Of a DNA stretch of 64,000 nt, positions 201 through 62,424 are shown in pieces. The notes beneath the pieces are model-generated. The model was not told the DNA's origin. It ran no database searches and saw only the letters and a program-made list of their open reading frames with translations. Position numbers and translations under genes: made by a program. The DNA is from Clostridiaceae bacterium (lineage in GTDB: Bacteria; Bacillota; Clostridia; Acetivibrionales; Acetivibrionaceae): NCBI GenBank assembly GCA_012519925.1, contig JAAYPF010000019.1, positions 1 to 64,000 on the forward strand. The letters are read 5' to 3'. Every line of letters starts with the position of its first letter. Position 1 is the first letter of the stretch.

Positions 201-1256
201 CTATAGCTTAACTTTGTTCATAATTCGATCTATAGGACTTTGAATTTTTGCAAAGCTCATTTCGCTCACATGTGTATATCTTTCTGTTGTAGTGGGACTC
301 GCGTGCCCTAGCAATTCCTGTATGTATCGTAAATCAGTTCCATTATCTAGTAAGTGGGTTGCAAATGAATGCCTCAGAGTATGAACTGAAACCTTCTTTC
401 TTACACCCGCTTTAAAAGCTGCTCTTGCAAAAACTTTCTGTATACTTCGTTCTGTTATATGATCTTTCTTATTTTGACCTTCAAACAACCAGTATTCAGG
501 TCTGTATATCTTAAAATATTGTCTTAATAAATCCAAAGTAATTGTTGATAAAAGAGTATATCTGTCCTTTTTACCTTTCGCATCCTTAACATAAATCAAA
601 TTTCTGCTACTGTCTATATCTTCAACTTTTAGTCGAGCTGCTTCACCCACTCTTAACCCTGCCGAGTAGATCAACATAATAATAGCTCTATGTTTTAAAT
701 TATCAATCGATTCAATAACTTTATATACTTCATTTGCATTCAAAACACTCGGTAATGTTTGCCCTCTTTTTGGACGCTTGATATCATAATCCGTGTCAGT
801 AACACCTTTTAAATTGACGAATAAAAACTTAAATGCACTTATTGCTTGGTCTATATATACTGCTGACCTACCTCGATCAAGTAAATTCAGTAAATATATC
901 TTTATATCCTCTTTGTTTATCTCGCTAACATCTTTTTTTTGAAACTCTAATAGTCTTCTCACATGACCTAGGTAAGCTTTTTGAGTCTTTGTGCTATAGT
1001 TTCTAAGCTTTAGCTCTTTTTTCAACTCAATCAATGTATCCTTGTCATATTCATAGGTTTCAAAAAAAAGATTATCTATACCAAACAAACGGGATAATAA
1101 ATTAACTGTATCCTTATTATCTGGTACTATCCATATTTTATCAGACTCTAACCACTTTCGTCCAGAAACTTTTCTAATCTTTCCAACATTCTCGATAGAA
1201 TAAGGTAATTCGACCGATAAAAAACCTTCAGAATACTTCTTCACATGTACAAACAT
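201..1256 (-). CDS. Tyrosine recombinase / site-specific integrase with an extra ~85-aa N-terminal domain
   Basis: Catalytic motifs GLRVGEAARL, HTLRHSFATHLL and LGHASPTTTERYTHV; SAM-like N-core 'LKLRNYSTKTQKAYLGHVRRLLEF'. Confidence 0.9.
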   Translation of the reverse strand: MFVHVKKYSEGFLSVELPYSIENVGKIRKVSGRKWLESDKIWIVPDNKDTVNLLSRLFGIDNLFFETYEYDKDTLIELKKELKLRNYSTKTQKAYLGHVRRLLEFQKKDVSEINKEDIKIYLLNLLDRGRSAVYIDQAISAFKFLFVNLKGVTDTDYDIKRPKRGQTLPSVLNANEVYKVIESIDNLKHRAIIMLIYSAGLRVGEAARLKVEDIDSSRNLIYVKDAKGKKDRYTLLSTITLDLLRQYFKIYRPEYWLFEGQNKKDHITERSIQKVFARAAFKAGVRKKVSVHTLRHSFATHLLDNGTDLRYIQELLGHASPTTTERYTHVSEMSFAKIQSPIDRIMNKVKL

Positions 1257-1359: not shown

Positions 1360-2043
1360 TTATGCACAAAAGCTTACTCCCCTTGTTTCAATAGCATTTA
1401 CTATATTTTTTATCCTAGCTAGCAAATAATCAATTGATTCTGAACTGTACCCTAACCCTTCTCCAGCTTCGTTTCGGCATTTTTGTAAAACATATAGCTT
1501 TGCTCCTCTTATTTGCTCGGCAATCTCCACAATATCTTCCGGATCAAGTCCTGGGGCTAGTGTAGTTCTAAACTCATAGCTGATACCGCTATTAATAATC
1601 AACTCTACGCTCTTCATAATATTACCTATATCTACTTCTGTTCCGCATATATCTTTATACTTATTTAGAGGAGCCTTAAAATCCATTGCAATATAATCTA
1701 ACAACCCTTTATCAAAGCAATTTTTTATCACCTCTGGGTTTGTACCATTTGTGTCAAGCTTTATAGGGTATCCTATTCCTTTTATAAGACTTAAAAAGGG
1801 CAGGAGCCCCTTTTGAAGTGTCGGCTCTCCCCCGCTCACAACAACTCCATCAAGGAACCCCTTTCTGCTCTCTAAAAATGTCAAGACATCTTTAGAATTA
1901 ATTAAATTTTCATAACTGCCATCTAGTAAAATTCTGTTATGGCAATAAAAGCAATCCATATTACAACCGGGAGTAAATAGCACTGCACTAATTTTCCCCG
2001 GGTAATCTACGAAGGAATTCTTCTGCATTCCATTTATCTTCAT
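1360..2043 (-). CDS. nrdG: Anaerobic ribonucleoside-triphosphate reductase activating protein (radical SAM)
   Basis: CNMDCFYCHN radical SAM motif; directly downstream of nrdD. Confidence 0.92.
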   Translation of the reverse strand: MKINGMQKNSFVDYPGKISAVLFTPGCNMDCFYCHNRILLDGSYENLINSKDVLTFLESRKGFLDGVVVSGGEPTLQKGLLPFLSLIKGIGYPIKLDTNGTNPEVIKNCFDKGLLDYIAMDFKAPLNKYKDICGTEVDIGNIMKSVELIINSGISYEFRTTLAPGLDPEDIVEIAEQIRGAKLYVLQKCRNEAGEGLGYSSESIDYLLARIKNIVNAIETRGVSFCA

Positions 2044-4130
2044 GATATCTTCTCCACTATTACAAATTTCTTTCTTTCTGTATATTCTTCTTTTTTTCCA
2101 ATATTGTAATTAGCTACTGGTCTTAAATATCCCGTTACCCTCGACCATACTTCGGTTATTTCACCACACTCAGGACAATTAAAATGCTCCCCTTTTATAT
2201 AACCATGATCTTTACATATACTAAAGGTAGGTGTTATTGAAATATACGGCATTTTGTAATCTACAAAAACCTTCCTAATCAGATTCTTACAAATCTCAAT
2301 ATCTTCAATACTTTCTCCAAGATACAAATGCTGCACTGTCCCCCCTGTATAAAGCGATTGCAATTCATCTTGCAACTGTAACACTTCGAATATATCATCA
2401 GTATACTCGACCGGAAGCTGTGTTGAATTTGTATAATATGGAGTTTCTTTTCCAGCAGTTATAATATTAGGATACTTCTTCTTGTCAATTTGGGCAAGTC
2501 TGTAAGAAGTCCCTTCTGCAGGAGTAGCTTCAAGATTGTAAAAATGTCCTGTTTCATTCTGAAATTCTACAAGTACTTCTCTTAAATAATGCATTATCTC
2601 AATTGAAAATTTCTGTCCTTCTTCAGTAGTTATATCCTTACCCATAAAATTCAGCAAAGCTTCATTCATGCCAATAATACCTATAGTGTTGAAATGGTTG
2701 TACCAATATTGCCCCGTTCTTTCTTTAACATGACGCAAATAGTGTGTTGAATAAGGATATAAACCTTTTTGCGATTGTTGTTCGATAATTTTCCTCTTAA
2801 TTTCTAATGAAGTCTTACCAATGTTGGCAATCCTCCAAAGCCTTGCCTTGAATTCACTTTCCGACTTAGAAAGAAAACCTATCCTAGCAAGATTTATTGT
2901 AAATACTCCAATTGAACCTGTAAGAGGGTTGCTTCCAAACAAACCTCCTCCTCTTTTTCTTAGCTCAGTTGTATCAAGTCTTAGACGGCAACACATTGAG
3001 ACCGCATCCTCTGGTGAAAGGTCGGAATTCACATAATTAGCGAAGTAAGGGATTCCATATTTGCAGGTTATTTTCATAAATTCGTCTACCACAGGATTAT
3101 TCCAATCAAAACTTTTAGTAATGTTAATTGTAGGGATTGGGAAAGTAAAGACCCTGCCTTTTGAATCCCCTTCAAGCATTACTTCGCAAAAAGCTTTGTT
3201 AAAGAGATCCATTTCATTTTGAAACTCCTTGTAGCTTTCCTTCATGTACTTTCCACCTATTATAACCGGTTCGTCCTTAAGAGTATTAGGTACTGTTATA
3301 TCAAAAGTCAAGTTCGAAAAAGGACATTGAAACCCCACTCTTGTAGGTACATTTATATTAAATATAAATTCCTGAATGCACTGTTTTACCTCGCTGTAAG
3401 TCATATTATCGTAGCGTATAAAAGGGGCACAATATGTATCGAAGCTAGACCATGCCTGTGCTCCTGCTGTCTCTCCCTGAGTGGTGAAGGTGGAATTTAC
3501 AATTTGTCCTAAGAATGATCTTAAATGTTTGGCCGGATTGCTCTCCACTTTTCCTTCAACACCACCAAAGCCATCAAGTAAAAGTTGTCTTAAATCCCAT
3601 CCTGCACAATACGGGCCAAAAAAACCTAAATCGTGAATATGGCAATCTCCATTTTCATGAGCTTCACGAACCTCTGTAGGATATATCTCATGAAGCCAGT
3701 ATTTCTTTGTGAAAGACTCTCTTATATAATTATTAAGACCATTAACACTCTTTTGTGTATTGGCATTTTCCTTAATATTCCAATCTTTATCCCCAAGGTA
3801 GTCTGAAAACATATCAATTGTCGCACCTACTAAAGCATTAAGGTCTCTGGCACTTTTGCGTTTTTCTCTGTATAGTATAAAAGCCTTGGCTGTTCTCGCA
3901 TGTCCGTTCTGGATTAAAACCTTTTCAACAATGTCCTGTACTTCTTCAACAGTGGGTGTCGCATTTTTATATGTAATTTCTGTCAAATCTAAAACTTGCT
4001 TACATAGTTCTTCAGCTTTTGTAAAATCATCGCCTCCACACGCAGATGCAGCCTTAAATATAGCCCAAGTAATCTTCTCCTGTTGAAATTTTTCTTCCTT
4101 TCCGTTTCTCTTAATAATTGTTTTAATCAT
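2040..4130 (-). CDS. nrdD: Anaerobic (class III) ribonucleoside-triphosphate reductase; start moved to MIKTIIKRNG
   Basis: ATP-cone N-terminus, C-terminal CPECG and RVTGYLRP glycyl-radical motif; AGGAGA Shine-Dalgarno before 4130. Confidence 0.95.
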   Translation of the reverse strand: MIKTIIKRNGKEEKFQQEKITWAIFKAASACGGDDFTKAEELCKQVLDLTEITYKNATPTVEEVQDIVEKVLIQNGHARTAKAFILYREKRKSARDLNALVGATIDMFSDYLGDKDWNIKENANTQKSVNGLNNYIRESFTKKYWLHEIYPTEVREAHENGDCHIHDLGFFGPYCAGWDLRQLLLDGFGGVEGKVESNPAKHLRSFLGQIVNSTFTTQGETAGAQAWSSFDTYCAPFIRYDNMTYSEVKQCIQEFIFNINVPTRVGFQCPFSNLTFDITVPNTLKDEPVIIGGKYMKESYKEFQNEMDLFNKAFCEVMLEGDSKGRVFTFPIPTINITKSFDWNNPVVDEFMKITCKYGIPYFANYVNSDLSPEDAVSMCCRLRLDTTELRKRGGGLFGSNPLTGSIGVFTINLARIGFLSKSESEFKARLWRIANIGKTSLEIKRKIIEQQSQKGLYPYSTHYLRHVKERTGQYWYNHFNTIGIIGMNEALLNFMGKDITTEEGQKFSIEIMHYLREVLVEFQNETGHFYNLEATPAEGTSYRLAQIDKKKYPNIITAGKETPYYTNSTQLPVEYTDDIFEVLQLQDELQSLYTGGTVQHLYLGESIEDIEICKNLIRKVFVDYKMPYISITPTFSICKDHGYIKGEHFNCPECGEITEVWSRVTGYLRPVANYNIGKKEEYTERKKFVIVEKIS

Positions 4131-4384
4131 TAGAACATCTCCTATTTTATTTTTCTTGTGCAACTTGCAATATATCATTTATAGCTAATTTTGTTACAAT
4201 TTTACTTAACAGGTTGTAATTCACACACTAAAATAATACTTTATGGGAAATTCGATCACAAATTTGCAGCTATAGATTGTCGTAAAATAGATAATAAGAC
4301 ATGACAACTGACACAACTTTGTATTAAGTTGCAGTGAATACCAATCCATCACCCTATCATCCGTAGAGTTAAAGGCATTGCACA

Positions 4385-4552
4385 AAGGCAGGTCTTCTGA
4401 CTCGGAATCATTGATATTTCATCCCTTCCCAGTATAAATTATTTAACCAGTGGTATTTATGAAACATCTCATCTTTACAGCGGCGGGACCGTGCAGGATT
4501 TTCACCTGCTTCCCTTTTAAACCAATATTATATTGGCAACCTATGTTCAACT
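4385..4552 (-). promoter_or_regulatory. Cobalamin (AdoCbl) riboswitch upstream of nrdDG
   Basis: Minus strand reads AAAGGGAAGCAGGTGAAAATCCTGCACGGTCCCGCCGCTGTAAAGATGAG ... CCACTGG ... AGAAGACCTGCC, the conserved Cbl riboswitch blocks. Confidence 0.93.
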
Positions 4553-4716
4553 ACATTTTGTTAGCACAATTTTATCACACACAAGATGTAGTGTCAATAT
4601 ATAAAAATACAATTTTTTTCTCATTTATTTTTTTACAGTTATTTAGAAAACAACTCTTTTAAATCAGCTACTAAAAAAGCCTCTTATAGCTTAATTGACC
4701 TAAACTATCTTTAACA

Positions 4717-7134
4717 TCAACTCTCTAATAATCTATTTGCCAGTTTTACAGCACTATATGCGTCTTGCGAATATCCATCCGCACCAATTTCTTTTGCAAA
4801 GCTTTCCGTTACAACTGCACCACCTACCATAAACTTAGCGGTTAAACCTTCTTTCTTAGCTAACTCTATTACGTTTTTCATCTCCATCATGGTTGTAGTC
4901 ATCAAAGCAGATAAACCTATGATTTCAACCTTCTTATCCTTTGCAGCATTTATAATCTCTTCAGCTGATACATCTTTTCCGAGGTCATAAACCTCAAAAC
5001 CATAATTCTTAAGCATTAGCCCTACAATATTTTTACCTATATCATGAATATCACCTTTGACTGTTGCAATTACAACTCTTGCTTTTGACTTTTTTTGTGC
5101 ATCATCCTTTTTCAGCATAGGCTCAACATACCCAAAGGCTTCTTTCATAGCCTCAGCACTCTGTATTAGCTGTGGTAAAAAGTATTCCTTTTTATCATAA
5201 AGATCCCCTACATGCGTAATAGCAGGTATTAAGCAGCTATCAACTAAATAAGCTGGTTCAAGCCCTTCTTTTAAAGCAGCTTCAATATGGGTTCTTATAT
5301 TTTCTCTGTCCCCTCCTACTACAGCTCCATAAATTCTTTCAGTTACACTTTGTTCTGCCTTTTGAGCTTGAGCAGGTTTTTCATTTGTACTATTTCCAAA
5401 ATACTCAATATACTTTATGCTATTTTTATCCTTTGCAGTAAGCACATCTCCAGCCATTTTTATACTCATAAGCACTTCACTCGAAGGATTCATTATAGCC
5501 ATGGTCAAGCCTCTTCCCATTGACATAGCAAGGAATGCACTGTTCACCCAGTTTCTTTCCGGCAAACCAAAAGATACATTTGAGAGCCCTAATATAGTGC
5601 CACATCCAAATGTGTTAGTACACCAATCTATTACCTTCAAGGTCTCTATAGCAGCTTTTTGATCGGAAGAAACCGTCATAACCAAACCATCTACAACTAT
5701 ATCATTCTTTCCGTAACCATATTTCGCTGCACTTTCAAACACTGCATTTATTACAGTGTACCTTTGCTCGGCAGTTGCAGGAACTCCTTCATCACTCAAT
5801 GGCAACAAAATAAACATAGCACCGTACTTAGCTACTACCGGTAACAGCTTTTCAAGTTTAACTTTTTCCGCTGATATGGAATTTATAAGAGCCCTTCCAG
5901 GATAAATTCTAAGAGCTGCCTCTAGCACTTCTGGTGATGAAGAATCCAAACACAGCGGAGCATCGACCATAGGAACAAGAAGTTCTACAGTCTTAATCAT
6001 TGTTTCCTTCTCATCTATTCCGGGCATCCCTACATTAACATCCAAAAGCTTTGCACCTTTTTCAAGCTGTTCTACAGCAAATCTTCTGACCTCGGAAGTT
6101 TTTCCTTCCCTTAGTTCCTCTTGGAGCTTCTTCTTACCTGTAGGGTTGATTCGCTCACCAACTACTACTGTAGGTTGGTTAATCCCCATAAATACAGTAG
6201 ATCTTGCTGAGGTAACTGCACTAATCTTTTCAGCTTCTATTCTAAGGGGCTTTAGTCCCTTTATTTTTCTCTTTATTTCTTGAATATATAAAGGAGAAGT
6301 TCCGCAGCATCCACCAAAAAGATTCACACCGCTTTTTGCAAATTCTTCGACATAAGTTCCAAATTCTTCAACTTCCATATCAAAAACCGTTTGCCCGTCA
6401 ACAAGCTTTGGTAGACCAGCATTAGGTTTTGCTATTAATGGAACCTTTGCATAGTGCTTCATAGTCTTAATAATTTTAAGCATATCCTTTGGTCCTGTAG
6501 AGCAATTGCAGCCAACCCCGTCAGCACCGAGACTTTGAAGCGTTATCAATGCCGTTATCGGGTCGGTTCCCATAAGTGTCTGTCCGTTTTCATCAAAAGT
6601 CATACTTACACAAACAGGAAGATCACAGCTCTCTTTGACTGCAATAAGAGCAGCTCTTGCTTCTTGTATATCCATCATTGTCTCAATTACAAAGAAATCT
6701 ACACCACCCTGTAAAAGTCCCTGTACTTGCTCTTTATACACCTCAACACAAGTTTCAAAGAGCATATCTCCAAAAGGTCTTACAAACTGACCAGTAGGAG
6801 CAAGATCTCCCACAACAAAACCTTTATCTCCTACAGCTTTTCTAGATAACCTTGCCAACTGTGCATTTATCTCAACAGTCTTATCTCCTAAACCAAACTC
6901 TTCAAGCTTTATTCTATTCCCACCAAAAGTACATGTATATACAGCATTAGACCCTGCATTAATATAGTCTCTCTGTACATTTATTATAACCTCAGGGTTT
7001 TCAATAACCCATTTCTCCGGACATACGCCTTTAGGCATTCCCCTTTTTTGAAGCTCTGTGCCAGTAGCACCATCTAAAATCATTATATTATTCTCTAAAA
7101 AACTAAAAAACTGTTCTTTATTCATCCTATCCAA
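4717..7134 (-). CDS. metH: Cobalamin-dependent methionine synthase (Hcy-binding, pterin-binding and B12-binding modules; no activation domain)
   Basis: ILDGATGTELQKRG, GCCGTSP, GERINPTGKK and GDIHDIGKNIV (B12 His motif DxHxxG). Confidence 0.95.
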   Translation of the reverse strand: MDRMNKEQFFSFLENNIMILDGATGTELQKRGMPKGVCPEKWVIENPEVIINVQRDYINAGSNAVYTCTFGGNRIKLEEFGLGDKTVEINAQLARLSRKAVGDKGFVVGDLAPTGQFVRPFGDMLFETCVEVYKEQVQGLLQGGVDFFVIETMMDIQEARAALIAVKESCDLPVCVSMTFDENGQTLMGTDPITALITLQSLGADGVGCNCSTGPKDMLKIIKTMKHYAKVPLIAKPNAGLPKLVDGQTVFDMEVEEFGTYVEEFAKSGVNLFGGCCGTSPLYIQEIKRKIKGLKPLRIEAEKISAVTSARSTVFMGINQPTVVVGERINPTGKKKLQEELREGKTSEVRRFAVEQLEKGAKLLDVNVGMPGIDEKETMIKTVELLVPMVDAPLCLDSSSPEVLEAALRIYPGRALINSISAEKVKLEKLLPVVAKYGAMFILLPLSDEGVPATAEQRYTVINAVFESAAKYGYGKNDIVVDGLVMTVSSDQKAAIETLKVIDWCTNTFGCGTILGLSNVSFGLPERNWVNSAFLAMSMGRGLTMAIMNPSSEVLMSIKMAGDVLTAKDKNSIKYIEYFGNSTNEKPAQAQKAEQSVTERIYGAVVGGDRENIRTHIEAALKEGLEPAYLVDSCLIPAITHVGDLYDKKEYFLPQLIQSAEAMKEAFGYVEPMLKKDDAQKKSKARVVIATVKGDIHDIGKNIVGLMLKNYGFEVYDLGKDVSAEEIINAAKDKKVEIIGLSALMTTTMMEMKNVIELAKKEGLTAKFMVGGAVVTESFAKEIGADGYSQDAYSAVKLANRLLES

Positions 7135-52233: not shown

Positions 52234-54276
52234 ATGAATCAAAAAACTTTTACATCGCTTAAGTTTGTTCATAATTTTATATCAAAGTACTGGCTACTAT
52301 TATTTTTTATAGTTTCCACCATATACCTTGAGCTTGTTTTTAGATTGTGGATATTTAAAAGTCTAAGTACCGACTTTATATTTGTTTTGCTATTCTCCCT
52401 ATCTGCCAGTATTATTTTGTTTATTCTGTCTTATGTATTTCCTCCTTTAATAAACAAGCTTTTGTCTATAACGCTTTTATCCTTACTTATTGTTATCTAC
52501 AGCATTCAACTTGTATATTATGATGTGTTCAAAACTACTTTGTCCTTCTTTTCACTAACTGGTACAAGAGACGTACTTCAATTTAAGAGCATTATTATAA
52601 CAGCCGTTTTTAGAAATATTATAGCACTTCTTCTCCTTTTCATACCTTTATTTATTTTGCCCTTTATTTACAGAAAGTGCCGTTTTGAAAGGCTCAAACT
52701 GAAGCCCCTTTTGATTTTATTGGCGTTTTTACTTATTAGCCATGCAGCTTCTTTGTTTTGTGTAAGCTTTACAAAAGAAACCGAGTATTCCCAGTACGAT
52801 TTGTATTATAAATCTGCTATACCCGAATTATCGGTAAATAAATTAGGACTTATGACAACAATGCGGCTTGATGTAAAAAGACTGCTTTTTGGAATAAACT
52901 ACAACGATAACGTCGAGGAATGCTCAAATAACGATGTTATTGAAACTGTTTCAAAATTTGTATACCGAGCGGAAGTAACTTCCACTCATAACATCGAACC
53001 AAATTGCACATTCACTACTCCGACCCCCGAACCAACCTTTAGCACTAATGTATCGAATATCGACTTTGAAGCACTTATTTCAAACGAAAAGGATAAAACT
53101 CTTCTTGATATGCACAAATATTTCTATTCGGTTGAACCTTCCAAAAAAAATAAATATACAGGAATGTTCAAAGATCATAATCTGATTCTCATAACAGCTG
53201 AGGGTTTCTCGCCTTATGCCATCAGCCCTGAATTAACGCCAACTTTGTATAAGATGTCAACGGAAGGCTTTTTTTTCAATAATTTTTACAATCCTATATG
53301 GGGAGTAAGCACCTCCGACGGAGAATATGTCGCTTGTACCGGGCTTATACCAAAATCCGGTATTTGGAGTTTCAGTCGGTCGGGCAAAAATTATATGCCT
53401 TTTGTTATGGGCAACCAGCTCAAGAATTTCGGATATACTTTGAAAGCATACCATAATCACTCCTACAAATATTATAACAGGCATATTTCACATCCAAATA
53501 TGGGCTACGATTACAAAGGAATAGGTAACGGACTGAATATAAAAAACACTTGGCCTGAATCGGACCTTGAAATGATTGATGTTACAATGGATGAATATAT
53601 TGGGAACGTACCTTTTCACACATATTACATGACTATAAGCGGTCATTTAAACTATACCTTTGGTGGAAACTACATTGCAAGGAAAAATAAAGCCTATGTT
53701 GAGCACCTTCCCTTCTCTGATAAAGCAAAGGCATATATTGCGTGCAATATGGAGCTTGAATTTGCCGTGAAATCTCTTATGGACAAACTAGAAGAGGCTG
53801 GCATAGCCGATAAAACTGTAATTGCCATAAGTCCGGATCATTATCCTTACGGACTTCCTAAGGAAAATATCGATGAGCTTGCAGGACATAAAGTTGAAGA
53901 TAATTTTGAACTATATAAAAGCACCTTAATTCTATGGAAAAAAGGAATGGATACTGTTATAGTCAACAAACCCTGCTCAAGCCTTGATATACTACCTACT
54001 CTATCAAATTTATTCGGACTTACCTTTGACTCAAGACTACTAATGGGGACAGATATATTATCTGACAGCAGACCTCTTGTCATATTTTCAAATAGGAGCT
54101 GGATTACAGACTATGCACAGTATAATAGCAAATCTGGTTCTGCAGAATATATTGAGGGTATTGATAAAGATATAAAGTATATTGAAGCTATAAATAAAAT
54201 TGTATCGGATAAATTTAAATACTCGGCGAAAATTATTGATACGGATTACTATGCTAAAATTTTAAAGGAATACTGA
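52234..54276 (+). CDS. LTA synthase-family sulfatase-fold membrane protein
   Basis: N-terminal TM helices; NPIWGVSTSDGEYVACTGLIP and AISPDHYPYGL. Confidence 0.88.
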   Translation: MNQKTFTSLKFVHNFISKYWLLLFFIVSTIYLELVFRLWIFKSLSTDFIFVLLFSLSASIILFILSYVFPPLINKLLSITLLSLLIVIYSIQLVYYDVFKTTLSFFSLTGTRDVLQFKSIIITAVFRNIIALLLLFIPLFILPFIYRKCRFERLKLKPLLILLAFLLISHAASLFCVSFTKETEYSQYDLYYKSAIPELSVNKLGLMTTMRLDVKRLLFGINYNDNVEECSNNDVIETVSKFVYRAEVTSTHNIEPNCTFTTPTPEPTFSTNVSNIDFEALISNEKDKTLLDMHKYFYSVEPSKKNKYTGMFKDHNLILITAEGFSPYAISPELTPTLYKMSTEGFFFNNFYNPIWGVSTSDGEYVACTGLIPKSGIWSFSRSGKNYMPFVMGNQLKNFGYTLKAYHNHSYKYYNRHISHPNMGYDYKGIGNGLNIKNTWPESDLEMIDVTMDEYIGNVPFHTYYMTISGHLNYTFGGNYIARKNKAYVEHLPFSDKAKAYIACNMELEFAVKSLMDKLEEAGIADKTVIAISPDHYPYGLPKENIDELAGHKVEDNFELYKSTLILWKKGMDTVIVNKPCSSLDILPTLSNLFGLTFDSRLLMGTDILSDSRPLVIFSNRSWITDYAQYNSKSGSAEYIEGIDKDIKYIEAINKIVSDKFKYSAKIIDTDYYAKILKEY

Positions 54277-54282
54277 TCCACG

Positions 54283-55086
54283 TCATAACTCATGGGACTT
54301 TTCAACAACTTTTGAGACTTCATTATACAAATTCTGTAAATCAATTTTTCCTTCTTTTTTACTTAGGTAAATCAAATATTCAATATTTCCTTCCGGTCCC
54401 TTTATTGGTGAAAAATCCAAGCCTTTTACCTTAAGTCCCGTTTCTAATACAAAAGTGATGATGTCTTTTATTACATCTTCGTGAACTATTGGATCCCGTA
54501 CAACTCCATGTTTACCTACTTTATCCCTTCCCGCCTCAAATTGCGGCTTAATCAGGCACATGAGCTCACCTTCGTCAGTCATCAATTTAATTGCTACAGG
54601 AATGACTTTTTTGAGAGAAATAAACGAAACGTCTACTGATGCAAAATCAACTAATGTACCTATTTGCTCTCGTTCAACATACCGGATATTTGTTCGTTCC
54701 ATGCATACAACTCGCTCGTCATTTCTTAGTTGCCATGCCAACTGCCCATAGCCAACATCTACAGCAAAGACTTTAGCTGCACCATTTTTTAGCATACAAT
54801 CGGTAAATCCTCCCGTGGATGCCCCAATATCCATTGCTGTCTTTCCTTTTAAATCTATATTAAATACCTTAATTGCCTTTTCAAGTTTTAGCCCGCCCCT
54901 GCTGACATAAGGATGTACATTTTCTTTTATCATTATTTCTGACTCTATATCAACCTTTAAACCAGGTTTATCTTCTTTGTTACCAGCTACAAACACAACT
55001 CCTGCCATTATAGAACTTCTTGCCTTTTCACGGCTTTCAAAAAGCCCCTTATTTACTAGCAAAACATCAAGTCTTTCCTTTTTCAA
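54283..55086 (-). CDS. tlyA: TlyA-family rRNA 2'-O-methyltransferase
   Basis: S4 domain; AMDIGASTGGFTDCMLKNGAAKVFAVDVGYGQL. Confidence 0.94.
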   Translation of the reverse strand: MKKERLDVLLVNKGLFESREKARSSIMAGVVFVAGNKEDKPGLKVDIESEIMIKENVHPYVSRGGLKLEKAIKVFNIDLKGKTAMDIGASTGGFTDCMLKNGAAKVFAVDVGYGQLAWQLRNDERVVCMERTNIRYVEREQIGTLVDFASVDVSFISLKKVIPVAIKLMTDEGELMCLIKPQFEAGRDKVGKHGVVRDPIVHEDVIKDIITFVLETGLKVKGLDFSPIKGPEGNIEYLIYLSKKEGKIDLQNLYNEVSKVVEKSHEL

Positions 55087-55154: not shown

Positions 55155-57053
55155 CTATTTTTTGGGAACAGCCTCAACATTTACTCTTTCCTTATTCACT
55201 AACTTAATTGCATCCTTCACAATAGCTTGCTCGTCAAGTCTGTATATACTCTGAAGCTCAATTTTTGAACCATGGGGAATAAATTTATCCGGATATCCAA
55301 ATATTTTTGTTTTTATGTTTATTCCGTTCTGATTCAATGTCTCAAGTACCCTACTTCCAAATCCTCCCGCTATGACATTATCCTCAATAGCTATAATACG
55401 TCTTGTCTTTATTGCAGAGCTAAAAAGAAGCTTTTCATCAAGAGGCTTAATAAACCTAGAATATATAACATCACATGAGATACCTACATCTTCTAACATA
55501 TCTGCAACTTTCAACGCAACCTCTACCTTATTTCCAATAGCCACAATAGTTAGATCGCTTCCTTCACGTACAAGCAAAGATTTACCAAACTTAATTGGCT
55601 CAGTATCAATTAGTTTGTCTACTCCTCTTCCCCTCGGATACCTTATTGCAATGGGACCATTATGTACTTTTACTGCATATTCTATCATCAATGCAAACTC
55701 CGCGTAATCACAAGGAGCTAGCATTGTCATATTGGGTATATGATTCAAGAAAGAAACATCATATATACCTTGATGTGTTTCTCCATCTTCACCAACAATA
55801 CCAGCTCTGTCAATAGCAAATACTACGTGAAGATTTTGAATTGCAACATCATGAAGTACTTGATCGTATGCCCTCTGCAAAAAAGAAGAATATAGAGCAA
55901 CTACAGGTGTAATACCGTTTCTAGCTAGTCCCGCAGCAAAGGTAACTGCATGTTGCTCTGCAATCCCCACATCAAAGAACCTCTCAGGAAATTTCTTAGA
56001 AAAAGGTTCTAGACCTGTCCCATGAGGCATTGCCGCTGAAATAGCTACTACTTTATCATCGTCTTGTGCTATCCTACAGAGCTCGTTGCCAAAAATTTCG
56101 GAATAGCCCGGTCCACTATTTGCGATTAGCTCCCCTGTCTCAACTTCAAAAGGTGCTATGCCGTGAAAAACATGGGGATTTTCCTCCGCATATGTATAGC
56201 CCTTACCCTTCTGTGTACATACATGTATTAGTACAGGACCTTTTATCGTCTTTGCTATGTTTAAGAGCTTTTCAATTTCAGTTGTATTATGCCCATCAAC
56301 TGGTCCTAAATACTTAAATCCAAGTTCTTCAAATATTATCCCAGGCATTATCATATATTTTATAGAGCCTTTAACTCTTCCTAAAGCCTTTGCAGCACTC
56401 TTTCCTATTGCAGGGATCTTTTTTAATATGAGATCTATATCCTCTTTCACCTTAAAATAGAAAGGTTCTGTCCTTATTTTGCTTAAGTATTTTGAAAGAC
56501 CCCCAACATTTTTAGAAATTGACATTTCATTGTCATTTAAAATTACAATAAAATTGTTTGGGAACCTTCCTGCATTATTCAATGCTTCAAAAGCCATCCC
56601 TCCTGTCATTGCTCCATCTCCTATAACAGCAATAACTGAAGATGATTCTTTTTTTAAGTCTCTTGCTTTTGCAATTCCTAAGGCAGCAGAAATAGAAGTG
56701 CTGCTATGACCTGTATTAAAGGCATCATGCTCACTTTCATTAGCCTTAGGAAACCCGGACAATCCTCCTAGTTTCCTCAATGTATCGAATTGGTCTTTTC
56801 TTCCTGTAATTATCTTATGAACATAAGACTGATGTCCAACATCCCAAACAATTTTGTCGGAAGGCGAATCAAACACACGGTGAAGTGCAAGGGTCAACTC
56901 CACTACACCTAAGTTAGAAGCAAGATGCCCCCCCGTCTTAGACACCTTATCAATTAAGAACATTCTTATTTCCGTTGCCAATTCATTCAATTCATCCAGA
57001 CTCATATTTTTTATATCATCCGGTGAATTAACTCTATTTATCAAATCAGCCAA
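55155..57053 (-). CDS. dxs: 1-deoxy-D-xylulose-5-phosphate synthase
   Basis: GDGAMTGGMAFEALNNAG, DRAGIVGEDGETHQG. Confidence 0.96.
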   Translation of the reverse strand: MADLINRVNSPDDIKNMSLDELNELATEIRMFLIDKVSKTGGHLASNLGVVELTLALHRVFDSPSDKIVWDVGHQSYVHKIITGRKDQFDTLRKLGGLSGFPKANESEHDAFNTGHSSTSISAALGIAKARDLKKESSSVIAVIGDGAMTGGMAFEALNNAGRFPNNFIVILNDNEMSISKNVGGLSKYLSKIRTEPFYFKVKEDIDLILKKIPAIGKSAAKALGRVKGSIKYMIMPGIIFEELGFKYLGPVDGHNTTEIEKLLNIAKTIKGPVLIHVCTQKGKGYTYAEENPHVFHGIAPFEVETGELIANSGPGYSEIFGNELCRIAQDDDKVVAISAAMPHGTGLEPFSKKFPERFFDVGIAEQHAVTFAAGLARNGITPVVALYSSFLQRAYDQVLHDVAIQNLHVVFAIDRAGIVGEDGETHQGIYDVSFLNHIPNMTMLAPCDYAEFALMIEYAVKVHNGPIAIRYPRGRGVDKLIDTEPIKFGKSLLVREGSDLTIVAIGNKVEVALKVADMLEDVGISCDVIYSRFIKPLDEKLLFSSAIKTRRIIAIEDNVIAGGFGSRVLETLNQNGINIKTKIFGYPDKFIPHGSKIELQSIYRLDEQAIVKDAIKLVNKERVNVEAVPKK

Positions 57054-57757
57054 ATAGGTTTCATCTCACTTTCTTTTTTTTTCGCCTTATTCCCATTATC
57101 CATAAAGCTAAATCTTCCTAACAAAAACTTTAATATTACAGCTACTTTATAAACTATATAATTACTCTTTTCAATCGCTATCGTCTTTCCAATAGCCTTC
57201 CCTCCGATGGTCAGCGATGCAACAGTGCCAGTAATTCCAACACTTGCTAGTGTCTGCATAGCACCGTTAGCTATCATGGCAATTTGTACCACAATAAAAC
57301 CACTGGCTGCTCCACTTATAACACCACATATATCACCTACAACATCATTACATATGCTCGACACCCTGTTTGCATTTCTAATGAGTATTATAGCCTGCTT
57401 CGCTCCGTATAGCTTTCTTGATGCCATAGCATGGAAAGGAGCCTCATCGGCTGCAGTGACAGCAATACCTATTATATCAAAAACAATACCCATTAAAATA
57501 ATTACCAATACTATAAGAAAAGATATGTAAATATAAGCATCTTCTAAAAGGGTTGAGGATATAATAGATAGACTTGAAGATAGTATAAATGTAAGTATTG
57601 TTACAAAAACAACCCATTTAAAATTTTCTTTTTTTGAACCAACAACATTAGTTCGAAACTTTATCTTTCGATCATTCGCAGGATGTTTATAATTGTCATC
57701 CACTAAACTACCCTCCAAATACCCAATAAATGAATAACTTACACTAAATCCTCGCAA
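57041..57757 (-). CDS. oapA: Membrane protein, candidate OLE-associated protein OapA
   Basis: Multi-TM protein directly downstream of the OLE-like RNA and upstream of dxs; assignment mainly contextual. Confidence 0.75.
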   Translation of the reverse strand: MRGFSVSYSFIGYLEGSLVDDNYKHPANDRKIKFRTNVVGSKKENFKWVVFVTILTFILSSSLSIISSTLLEDAYIYISFLIVLVIILMGIVFDIIGIAVTAADEAPFHAMASRKLYGAKQAIILIRNANRVSSICNDVVGDICGVISGAASGFIVVQIAMIANGAMQTLASVGITGTVASLTIGGKAIGKTIAIEKSNYIVYKVAVILKFLLGRFSFMDNGNKAKKKESEMKPIWLI

Positions 57758-57778
57758 ACTACATCTATAAATTAAATA

Positions 57779-58397
57779 CAGGGTGGAAATACATTGAGTA
57801 AATTTTGCGGCTTAGGTCAGGCATGTTTTCCACGGAAGATACTGAAATGTCGCCAAATCAGCGGTTTCCCTTTAGATCCTCCGCCACATTGTTACCAATT
57901 GTGGGGCCTGATTACCACTTAGTCCACACTGCAATCCCCAGTGTATCTCTTTCTAGAACAGTCTAGGGGTTTTCCCCAACAGCCTGACCGATTCCTAGCC
58001 TCTTTTGCAAAGGTGGTTTCAAACTGCTTTAGTGTCCTCGTATCGGCCAATACTTGTACACCTGACCATTATCCACCAACTTCACTCAAGGCAGGCTACT
58101 CTGTTCACAGCACCTTTACGGAACCGCATAACAGGTTTACTCCCTTCTCGTAGTTGAGGTGGCACTCTAAAAACGAAATGTTTTAAAGTGTCTTTTCTTC
58201 CACAAGGAAGGGTCTCCACGGAAAAGGGGTCAACGCCCGCATGCCATTGCGGATCGCCCCAAAACCTTAACTCCCAGCATCAGCCCACTACTGGGCGTAA
58301 CAAGCCAACACAAGGAACTTCATCGATGTGCCCTTAAGCGGATTTTTAGGCCCGCCTTCAGAACCGGTAGCACCGACTAGAATACTGCACCACCCTG
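57779..58397 (-). ncRNA. ole: OLE (ornate, large, extremophilic) RNA
   Basis: ~620-nt GC-rich non-coding stretch; ends pair (5' CAGGGTGG / 3' CCACCCTG); lies between ispA cluster and oapA-dxs-tlyA as in known OLE loci. Confidence 0.9.
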
Positions 58398-58833
58398 TTT
58401 TATAGCAATTTTGTAAACACTCAGTAACACTACTTCTATTTGTCATGAAAAGCGTCACAAAGTGCTTAATCTACAATAAGCCTCTCACATTATTGCATTT
58501 ATTTATATGAGGCTTTTTGGTATGACAAGTACTTATTATATCATACAAACACCAATCTATAAAGAATCACTATTATCTGTAAATCGCCTTTAATCATCAA
58601 TAAAAGCATTTAGTTCGACTCAATGAATTTATAGTTATTAATGCCTTGTTTTAGTTCTCTATGCTAATTCTAATGCTACTATATCTTTCGAAAATTGTTC
58701 TAAATTTTGTATGGGGAATAACGAAAAAATAGCTTCTTATTCTCATAGTGTGAGAACATTATCAAATCAAGTTTCTTCGTCATCCAAGAGTTGGAACTTA
58801 TATTTTAACCGTTCCTAGGTCTTTTTGAATTAC

Positions 58834-59274
58834 TTATCCAAGCCAAATGCCGATTAAAATTCCTAAAAGAGCACCCATAACTACTTCAAAGGGAGAATGT
58901 CCCAATAATTCCTTAAGTTTTTCATCAAAGTACAGCTTATCATTATGAGAGTGAAGAAGTTGATTCAATACCTTTGCTTGCTTTCCTGCAGCTCTTCTTA
59001 CACCTGCCGCATCATACATTACAATTAAAGACACAGCAAATGCAATACCAAACTCTGCAGATTCTATTCCTCTAATTTTACCAATAACAGTTGCTAAAGA
59101 TACAATAAATGCTGAATGTGAACTTGGCATTCCTCCTGAACCTATGAATCTCGTAAAATCAATTCTTTTACTTGTCAATAGAATATTTATTACCTTTAGA
59201 AGCTGTGCTAAGAACCACGCAAAAACAGGTACTGTTATCGTCTTGTTTTGTGTAACCGCATCAATAATATGCAC
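58834..59274 (-). CDS. Divergent PAP2 family protein (YuiD-like)
   Basis: SGGMPSSHSAFIVSLAT, MYDAAGVRRAAGKQA, LGHSPFEVVMGALLG. Confidence 0.93.
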   Translation of the reverse strand: MHIIDAVTQNKTITVPVFAWFLAQLLKVINILLTSKRIDFTRFIGSGGMPSSHSAFIVSLATVIGKIRGIESAEFGIAFAVSLIVMYDAAGVRRAAGKQAKVLNQLLHSHNDKLYFDEKLKELLGHSPFEVVMGALLGILIGIWLG

Positions 59275-59393: not shown

Positions 59394-60284
59394 TTATATT
59401 TCCCTTACAATAAGATATTCTGTGAGTTCCTTAAGAAAAGCAGCTTTTGTACCAAACTTTTGTAGGTTTGTTATTGCTTCTTCTGATGTCTTATTAAGCA
59501 TTTGCTTTGACTTTTCAAGCCCATAAAGGCTTACATATGTAGTTTTCTTATTTGAGGCATCACTGCCGACTTTTTTCCCTAATTTCTCAGTGCTTCCTTC
59601 TACATCCAGTATGTCATCCTTTATCTGGAAAGCCAATCCTAAGCCTTCAGCAAATTTTTCCAGACTTTGTGATTCCTCATCGGTAGCATTGCAGATAATT
59701 GCTGCGGATACTACCGGTGCTTTTATTAATGCTCCTGTCTTATATCTGTGTATATATTCAAGTGTCTCAATAGATATTTCCTTATTTTCTGATTCAGTAT
59801 CAATAACCTGACCTCCAATCATACCTCTTATACCGGAGGATTTTGCTATATATGCCATTGCTTTAATTTTATTTTCTAGATTATTAGGTTTACTAGAGGT
59901 ACTTTCAAGCATCACCTCAAAAGCCATGTTAAGAAGTCCGTCACCGGCTAAAATAGCGAGTGATTCACCAAACATTTTGTGATTTGTAAGTTTCCCCCTT
60001 CTATAATCATCATTATCCATAGCAGGAAGATCATCATGTATTAATGAATAGGTATGAATCATTTCAATAGCACACGCATAAGGAAGGACTTCTTCTAAAT
60101 CACCACCTAGCATATCACACACCGCAAGTGCAAGAGTAGGTCTAAGTCTTTTACCTCCAGCTAGGAGACTATAACGAATAGCAGTATATATAGATTTCTC
60201 CAACAAATCCTTCTCTTTTATGCTTTTATCCAAAAAATCGTTTACCATATCTGTATATCTATTTTGTTTTTCCATAAAGTCCAT
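59394..60284 (-). CDS. ispA: Polyprenyl (farnesyl) diphosphate synthase
   Basis: LIHDDLPAMDNDDYRRG, GGKRLRP, FQIKDDILD. Confidence 0.95.
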   Translation of the reverse strand: MDFMEKQNRYTDMVNDFLDKSIKEKDLLEKSIYTAIRYSLLAGGKRLRPTLALAVCDMLGGDLEEVLPYACAIEMIHTYSLIHDDLPAMDNDDYRRGKLTNHKMFGESLAILAGDGLLNMAFEVMLESTSSKPNNLENKIKAMAYIAKSSGIRGMIGGQVIDTESENKEISIETLEYIHRYKTGALIKAPVVSAAIICNATDEESQSLEKFAEGLGLAFQIKDDILDVEGSTEKLGKKVGSDASNKKTTYVSLYGLEKSKQMLNKTSEEAITNLQKFGTKAAFLKELTEYLIVREI

Positions 60285-60333: not shown

Positions 60334-60567
60334 TTATTTGTCCTCATTGAAAGGTTTTTCAATTACTTCGCCCTTCTCATTTTCCACTAATATAGTTATT
60401 TTTTTCTCTATTTCATCTAACATCTTACTTAAATCTTTTGAAAGTGTAACACCTTTTTGAAAAATCTCTATAGACTCATCTAGTGACATCTCGCCATGTT
60501 CTAACTTCTCAACTATTTCTTCAAGTTCACTAAGTGACTTTTCAAAGTTCTTTTTTTCTTTAGCCAT
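60334..60567 (-). CDS. xseB: Exodeoxyribonuclease VII small subunit
   Basis: FEKSLSELEEIVEKLEHGEMSLDESIEIFQKGV. Confidence 0.95.
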   Translation of the reverse strand: MAKEKKNFEKSLSELEEIVEKLEHGEMSLDESIEIFQKGVTLSKDLSKMLDEIEKKITILVENEKGEVIEKPFNEDK

Positions 60568-60569
60568 AA

Positions 60570-61835
60570 TTAACTCCTGCCCTTCACTCTATTTACTGTA
60601 CAATATAAGTCACCGTCGGCTAGGTTAACTTTTAATTGCTCTCCTACCGCCACATCCTTCACAGATTTGACAATATTCTCGTCATCTGCTAATTTAACAA
60701 TACTATACCCCCGTGATAATATAGTTAAAGGACTTAGGGCATCGAGCTTTCCTATAAGAAACTTAAGCTTTGCCTCGGCTCTCTCCTGTCTCATAAGAAA
60801 GGCTTTTCTCATATCCTTACATAGGGTATCTAGTTTCATTCTCTCTTGATATACCCTGTCATAAGGCTGCCTGAAAACAGCAGAGTTTTTAAGTTCTTCA
60901 AGTCTCTTACGTTTAATTTTTGCATTTCTTAAAACTGAACTTCTAAGCCTTATATCCAGCTCAATTAGCCTATTAATAAGTTGTTGCTTCTCTGGCATCA
61001 CAATCTCAGCAGCCGCCGAAGGAGTAGGAGCACGCACGTCTGCAGTAAAATCACATATTGTATAGTCTGTCTCATGACCAACTGCTGATATTATCGGAAT
61101 CTCGGACTTAAATATACTCCTTGCAACAATTTCCTCATTAAAAGGCCAAAGCTCTTCTAAAGACCCTCCTCCCCTAGCAATTATAATAACGTCAACACAC
61201 TTTAATTGGTTAAGAGTATCAATAGCCTTGCTTATTTCGTTAGCTGCACCTAATCCTTGAACTTTAACAGGAAACACTTTTATACTAGCGTTATGAAATC
61301 TCCTGTCAAGTACATTTATGATATCGCGAATAACCGATCCCGTTGATGATGTTACCACTCCAATTGAATTAGGCAAAAAAGGTATTCCTTTTTTATAACA
61401 GCTTTCAAAAAGTCCTTCATTAGAGAGTTTTTGTTTTAATTGTTCAAAGGCAATATGAAGATTACCAACACCGTCATTTATCATTTCCTCAGCATAAAGC
61501 TGGTACTGCCCATCTCTTTCATATATAGAAATATATCCTTTTATTATAACCTTCATTCCATTTTCGGGCAAAAACTTTAAGTATGAATTATGCGATCTGA
61601 ACATAACACACTTAATAAGACTGTTTTCGTCCTTAAGTGTAAAATACATATGCCCTGAAGAATGATTTTTGAAATTGGAAATTTCACCTCTAATCCAGAG
61701 GTTTGATAGTATCATATCCTTTGAAATAAGTCCTTTAATGTATCCATTTATCGTAGATACAGTCAATATATTTTCAAAAGCACCAGTCAAAGCTTCTCTC
61801 ATTTCCTCACCTAAAACTATTAATAAATTTCCCAT
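60570..61835 (-). CDS. xseA: Exodeoxyribonuclease VII large subunit
   Basis: IIIARGGGSLEELWPFNEE, SAVGHETDYTICDFTADVRAPTPSAAAE. Confidence 0.96.
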   Translation of the reverse strand: MGNLLIVLGEEMREALTGAFENILTVSTINGYIKGLISKDMILSNLWIRGEISNFKNHSSGHMYFTLKDENSLIKCVMFRSHNSYLKFLPENGMKVIIKGYISIYERDGQYQLYAEEMINDGVGNLHIAFEQLKQKLSNEGLFESCYKKGIPFLPNSIGVVTSSTGSVIRDIINVLDRRFHNASIKVFPVKVQGLGAANEISKAIDTLNQLKCVDVIIIARGGGSLEELWPFNEEIVARSIFKSEIPIISAVGHETDYTICDFTADVRAPTPSAAAEIVMPEKQQLINRLIELDIRLRSSVLRNAKIKRKRLEELKNSAVFRQPYDRVYQERMKLDTLCKDMRKAFLMRQERAEAKLKFLIGKLDALSPLTILSRGYSIVKLADDENIVKSVKDVAVGEQLKVNLADGDLYCTVNRVKGRS

Positions 61836-61998: not shown

Positions 61999-62424
61999 TT
62001 ACGTTTTTTCTGCCTCAGTAGGTAATACTCTTACTTTTGAAACTTTACCTAATATACCATTAATAAAAGAACTACTTTCTTCACCGCTGTAACTTTTGGC
62101 CAATTCAACAGCTTCATTTATAGATACGTTAAGCGGAATATCCCTTCTATAACACATCTCATATATACTAAGCCTTAAAATAGATAAATCAACCTTTGAA
62201 ATTCTAGAAAGTTTCCATCCCTTTGAATACATTTCAATGTTTTTATCAATCTGTTCTACATTTTTGTATACGCCTTCCACAACATCAACAATATATTTTG
62301 TGTCATTTTCAGTAAGAGTCTCTTCTTCAAGGGTCTGCCTTATCTGCTCTTCCCTAGAATCCTTCTGGATCTCTAGTTGGTATACGAGTTTCATTGCAAT
62401 TTCCCTGGCTGCCCTTCTTCCCAT
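61999..62424 (-). CDS. nusB: Transcription antitermination protein
   Basis: MGRRAAREIAMKLVYQLE, NVSINEAVELAKSYSGEESSSFINGILGKV. Confidence 0.95.
   Translation of the reverse strand: MGRRAAREIAMKLVYQLEIQKDSREEQIRQTLEEETLTENDTKYIVDVVEGVYKNVEQIDKNIEMYSKGWKLSRISKVDLSILRLSIYEMCYRRDIPLNVSINEAVELAKSYSGEESSSFINGILGKVSKVRVLPTEAEKT

Follow-up and report, generated by a model that had tools for sequence, protein, structure and literature searches.

OLE RNAs form a class of large, membrane-associated bacterial RNAs known since 2006. Few bacterial RNAs whose biochemical role is not known are, to our knowledge, as large or as well conserved. In Halalkalibacterium halodurans, OLE RNA is found at the membrane together with the protein OapA, OapB binds it at stem P13, OapC and bS21 bind near P5/P6, and the resulting particle protects the cells from cold and alcohol stress and from excess Mg2+ (PMC9723947, PMC12054373, PMC10898510). 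The ole gene of this species has its own promoter within a larger operon (PMC9723947), and cryo-EM of a clostridial OLE RNA revealed an RNA dimer (PMC12286853).

Here we analysed a stretch of 64,000 nt from a Clostridiaceae genome (hereafter the window) and found that it carries a typical fresh example of this already known OLE-OapA system. Almost certainly, the locus consists of a full-length ole with oapA behind it. The clostridial genome that carries it also encodes OapB, a candidate OapC and bS21. The locus is a well-supported OLE example with all known protein partners and with a predicted promoter motif conserved across its family.

Identity and neighbourhood of the OLE RNA

By searching with the Rfam OLE model RF01071 (gathering cut-off 50 bits), we obtained a match on the minus strand at 57767-58409 with 545.1 bits and an E-value of 4.5e-157, covering model positions 1-616 of 616, i.e. 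end to end. This confirms the structured noncoding region of ~620 nt that the initial annotation had proposed here, with an extent of about 620-640 nt. Its description as GC-rich holds only in a relative sense, since the RNA has just 47% G+C. All stems of the model could be aligned, and the presence of P7-P9 and of the OapB-binding P13 places this RNA in the full-length class rather than in variant 1 or 2. It is the single OLE copy of the genome (a 3.9-Mb assembly, 99.98% complete) and shares 57-91% identity with the 41 OLE RNAs compared with it. Within the family of the source organism, OLE was found in 13 out of 14 genomes, the only one without it being an assembly that is 55% complete.

The genes around ole, listed below in the order in which they are read, make up the classical neighbourhood, in agreement with the setting among ispA, xseAB, nusB, dxs and tlyA that the initial annotation had given for OLE RNAs in general.

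61999..62424, minus strand: nusB (TIGR01951, 148.9 bits)
60570..61835, minus strand: xseA (TIGR00237, 485.1 bits)
60334..60567, minus strand: xseB-like small ORF of 77 aa (by position and sequence)
59394..60284, minus strand: ispA-type farnesyl diphosphate synthase (NF045485, 376.9 bits)
58834..59274, minus strand: divergent PAP2-type (DUF212) membrane protein, encoded upstream of ole (PF02681, 167.4 bits)
57767..58409, minus strand: OLE RNA (ole), extent as given by the full RF01071 match; core between the terminal-helix strands, 57778-58398
57041..57703, minus strand: oapA, 220 aa, GTG start, GGAGG, DVVGD motif
55155..57053, minus strand: dxs, overlapping the end of oapA (TIGR00204, 821.6 bits)
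54283..55086, minus strand: tlyA-family rRNA methyltransferase (TIGR00478, 276.2 bits)

On the opposite strand, a gene for an LtaS-like sulfatase-family membrane protein (52234-54276, plus strand; PF00884, 67.7 bits) converges on the ole operon; its match to a lipoteichoic acid synthase model is below the cut-off.

Compared with known OLE RNAs (RF01071; H. halodurans, Clostridium acetobutylicum and C. botulinum), this one is alike in its whole-model match, its conserved elements, its nusB/xse/ispA/dxs/tlyA neighbourhood, its single copy and its own, here predicted, promoter. It differs by a 27-nt insertion relative to RF01071, which lengthens the loop after P6, and by a predicted 5' leader of ~130 nt, both of which are variations typical of the lineage.

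Covariation and RNA structure

This RNA and the 41 OLE RNAs of related loci were aligned by MAFFT with structure not used, and the Rfam pairs were then carried over to the alignment from the sequence of the window. At the 158 Rfam pairs, 88.3% of cells were paired across the 42 OLE RNAs, compared to 39-45% in the slid control, in which the partner strand was moved by 1-4 columns. Double changes occurred at 118 of these 158 pairs, against 57-86 pairs in the slid controls.

The ends of the RNA had been claimed to pair (CAGGGTGG/CCACCCTG), and they indeed form a strongly covarying terminal helix of 9 bp on the minus strand. This helix was paired in 347 out of 378 cells (92%; nine pairs in 42 OLE RNAs) with double changes at seven of its nine pairs, whereas 5,000 re-deals of the 3' strands among the sequences, which retain sequence kinship, gave a mean of 283/378 and a maximum of 309/378. 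Among relatives, the same helix is built from alternative strands (AGGGTGG/CCACCCT, AGGATGG/CCATCCT and GGAATGG/CCATTCC). It is absent from the structure line of RF01071, but published OLE models already list stems P1, P2 and P3 (PMC12265935), so that the terminal helix is probably their P1 and not new. Also missing from the Rfam structure line is a second covarying helix (58360-58367/57988-57995) with 8 consecutive pairs and many pair types, whose position fits the published P3, the stem proposed to span the membrane (PMC12265935). Covariation supports two helices left out by Rfam, the terminal helix and the putative P3, the latter of which would be the proposed membrane-spanning stem.

58390..58398, minus strand: 5' strand of the terminal helix (probably P1), ACAGGGTGG, from 58398 to 58390; covariation over 42 sequences
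57778..57786, minus strand: 3' strand of the terminal helix (probably P1), CCACCCTGT, from 57786 to 57778; covariation over 42 sequences
58360..58367, minus strand: 5' strand of the 8-bp helix matching P3; covariation, P3 named from its position
57988..57995, minus strand: 3' strand of the 8-bp helix matching P3, paired with 58360-58367
58337..58356, minus strand: P4 hairpin with the conserved A-rich loop; Rfam alignment
57841..57862, minus strand: P13 stem-loop with its GGCGAC loop intact; Rfam alignment and alignment of relatives, stem named from its position

The A-rich loop of P4 corresponds to the published A-A contact of the dimer (PMC12286853), and the P13 region to the published site of OapB (PMC9723947, PMC12054373). 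As a separate observation, the structure line of RF01071 could be extended by the covarying terminal helix and P3.

P6 contains an internal U-rich mismatch (GGUUUUGGGG/CCCCUUUUCC) at a place where the Rfam consensus pairs, as might be expected if OLE were here a degenerate or non-functional remnant. However, near relatives have a nearly identical P6 internal loop, and a P6 internal loop unlike the older model is likewise reported in the cryo-EM structure from C. acetobutylicum (PMC12286853). Moreover, the whole-model score of 545 bits is above that of most other OLE RNAs found, and oapA is intact and conserved. These data make a remnant extremely improbable and argue for an intact, full-length OLE RNA.

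OapA and the partner proteins

The initial annotation had placed the adjacent membrane-protein gene 21 bp from the RNA. This value does not hold, as it relied on the longest open frame, starting at TTG 57757. Judging from the sequence, the start of oapA is most likely GTG 57703, which is preceded by a GGAGG Shine-Dalgarno site (GGAGGGTAGTTTA-GTG) and is common to relatives; with this conserved start, the gap between the end of the OLE model and oapA is ~63 nt.

The same annotation had put this gene forward as a candidate oapA, and comparison with the OapA family bore this out. First, searching bacterial genomes with the protein gave 37 OapA relatives, and 37/37 had a same-strand OLE RNA directly upstream. 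Second, D120 and D124 of the DxxxD motif, described as setting OapA apart from CNNM proteins (PMC11332333), are invariant in an alignment of 40 OapA sequences. Third, the AlphaFold2 model of the protein (mean pLDDT 83.9) has four long helices, and its best four PDB matches by Foldseek were all the CNNM protein MtCorB, with probabilities of 0.97-1.00, E-values of 0.02-0.28 and none at 0.001 or better, and TM-scores of 0.4-0.5. The model thus suggests a four-helix CNNM-like membrane protein whose fold, as predicted, most resembles that of CNNM magnesium transporters, a relation between OapA and CNNM proteins that is already published (PMC11332333). Sequence searches with the protein found nothing in NCBIfam, nor in the PDB with either a single sequence or a profile as the query. 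Like known OapA, it is predicted to be a four-helix CNNM-like membrane protein, follows ole and has the DxxxD motif; it differs by its GTG start and by N- and C-terminal extensions, which are variable within the family. Covariance model, OapA family membership and gene neighbourhood all support the earlier reading of the region as a complete OLE-OapA locus.

Given the CNNM fold neighbours and a weak Pfam CNNM match (19.5 bits, cut-off 28.4), the adjacent gene might be thought to encode an ordinary CNNM/MpfA-type transporter lying beside OLE by chance. Yet the protein, although related in its transmembrane fold to the MpfA/CorB Mg2+ transporters, has neither a CBS nor a CorC_HlyC domain, and DxxxD is present. 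In addition, none of its 37 sequence relatives was found at a locus without OLE, and the genome has one MpfA-type protein (domains CNNM, CBS and CorC_HlyC), encoded by a separate gene on a contig other than that of ole. We consider a chance neighbour exceedingly unlikely and keep the assignment as OapA.

No genome of the family has more than one strong CNNM match, and the single MpfA here fits the report that OLE-bearing species have at most about one (PMC11332333). The other partners were also found elsewhere in the genome. OapB, a protein of 96 aa encoded between map and infA, was located with a query ortholog from an OLE-bearing Alkalihalobacterium, tied to PDB 7k9b; its best PDB match is OLE-associated protein B (E 3.3e-13). 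A KOW-domain Pfam search of the genome missed it and returned only L24 and NusG. An 80-aa L7Ae-family protein encoded between rpoC and rpsL is, by its family and gene position, the OapC/YbxF-like candidate, a second L7Ae-family protein being encoded in the nusA region. The genome also encodes bS21. With OapB, this putative OapC, bS21 and a single MpfA, the genome is as published surveys predict.

Predicted promoter and leader, and proposed mechanism

Upstream of ole we predicted two elements, a promoter and a transcribed leader.

58535..58563, minus strand: promoter predicted for ole itself, TTTATA, 17 nt, TATAAT, extended -10 (TATGATATAAT)
58399..58528, minus strand: predicted transcribed leader of ~130 nt with two hairpins (fold z-score -4.2 versus shuffles)

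Of 18 loci, 17 had TGNTAWAAT less than 200 nt before the OLE start versus 0.87 expected from shuffles, often with a common -35 region that is TTCTTTAAAC-like or GTTGCA-like. We predict that this conserved motif is a sigma-A-type promoter. The distance from the -10 element to the start of the OLE model varies from 15 to 125 nt among loci. It is a tentative and rather doubtful proposal that ole transcripts of this family begin at the conserved sigma-A-type promoter and, given this varying distance, gain their mature 5' end by cleavage, at or near the terminal helix, of variable and sometimes structured leaders. The leader itself is conserved neither in sequence nor in length. With one copy in the genome and no structure in common among relatives, it could be ruled out as a dispersed repeat.

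Since ole closely precedes oapA, the minus strand has no terminator-like site in the gap between the two, and dxs directly follows oapA, the RNA could instead act mainly in cis, as a long leader regulating oapA and dxs. We regard this as very unlikely: published genetics give the trans partners OapB, OapC and bS21 and stress phenotypes of the RNP complex (PMC9723947, PMC12054373), and the conserved structure stops before the oapA start, the gap between ole and oapA varying roughly from 15 to 140 nt among relatives.

For an OLE RNA working with its protein partners, we propose the following steps. The ole gene would be transcribed from the predicted conserved promoter together with oapA. The RNA would dimerise, OapA dimers would bring it to the membrane, its P5/P6 region would be bound by OapC and bS21, and P13 by OapB. 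In the mechanism that we prefer, the RNA would there scaffold and gate a CNNM-like OapA ion-transport unit, gating being a conjectural step, and the divalent metal balance would thereby be adjusted under stress. Although it is our preferred one, we rate this mechanism as somewhat less likely than not.

Far from ole in the window, a cobalamin riboswitch (4370-4559, minus strand; 127 bits) lies upstream of nrdD, which encodes an anaerobic ribonucleotide reductase (PF13597, 646.6 bits), and of a gene for a radical SAM activase (together 1360-4178, minus strand). The genome also encodes a 773-aa large-subunit reductase (PF02867), possibly B12-dependent, so that B12 may switch the cell between ribonucleotide reductases. 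Just upstream of the riboswitch, an ORF of 805 aa (4717-7134, minus strand) looks MetH-like from its sequence. Finally, a tyrosine recombinase with phage-integrase domains is encoded near the window edge (201-1256, minus strand).
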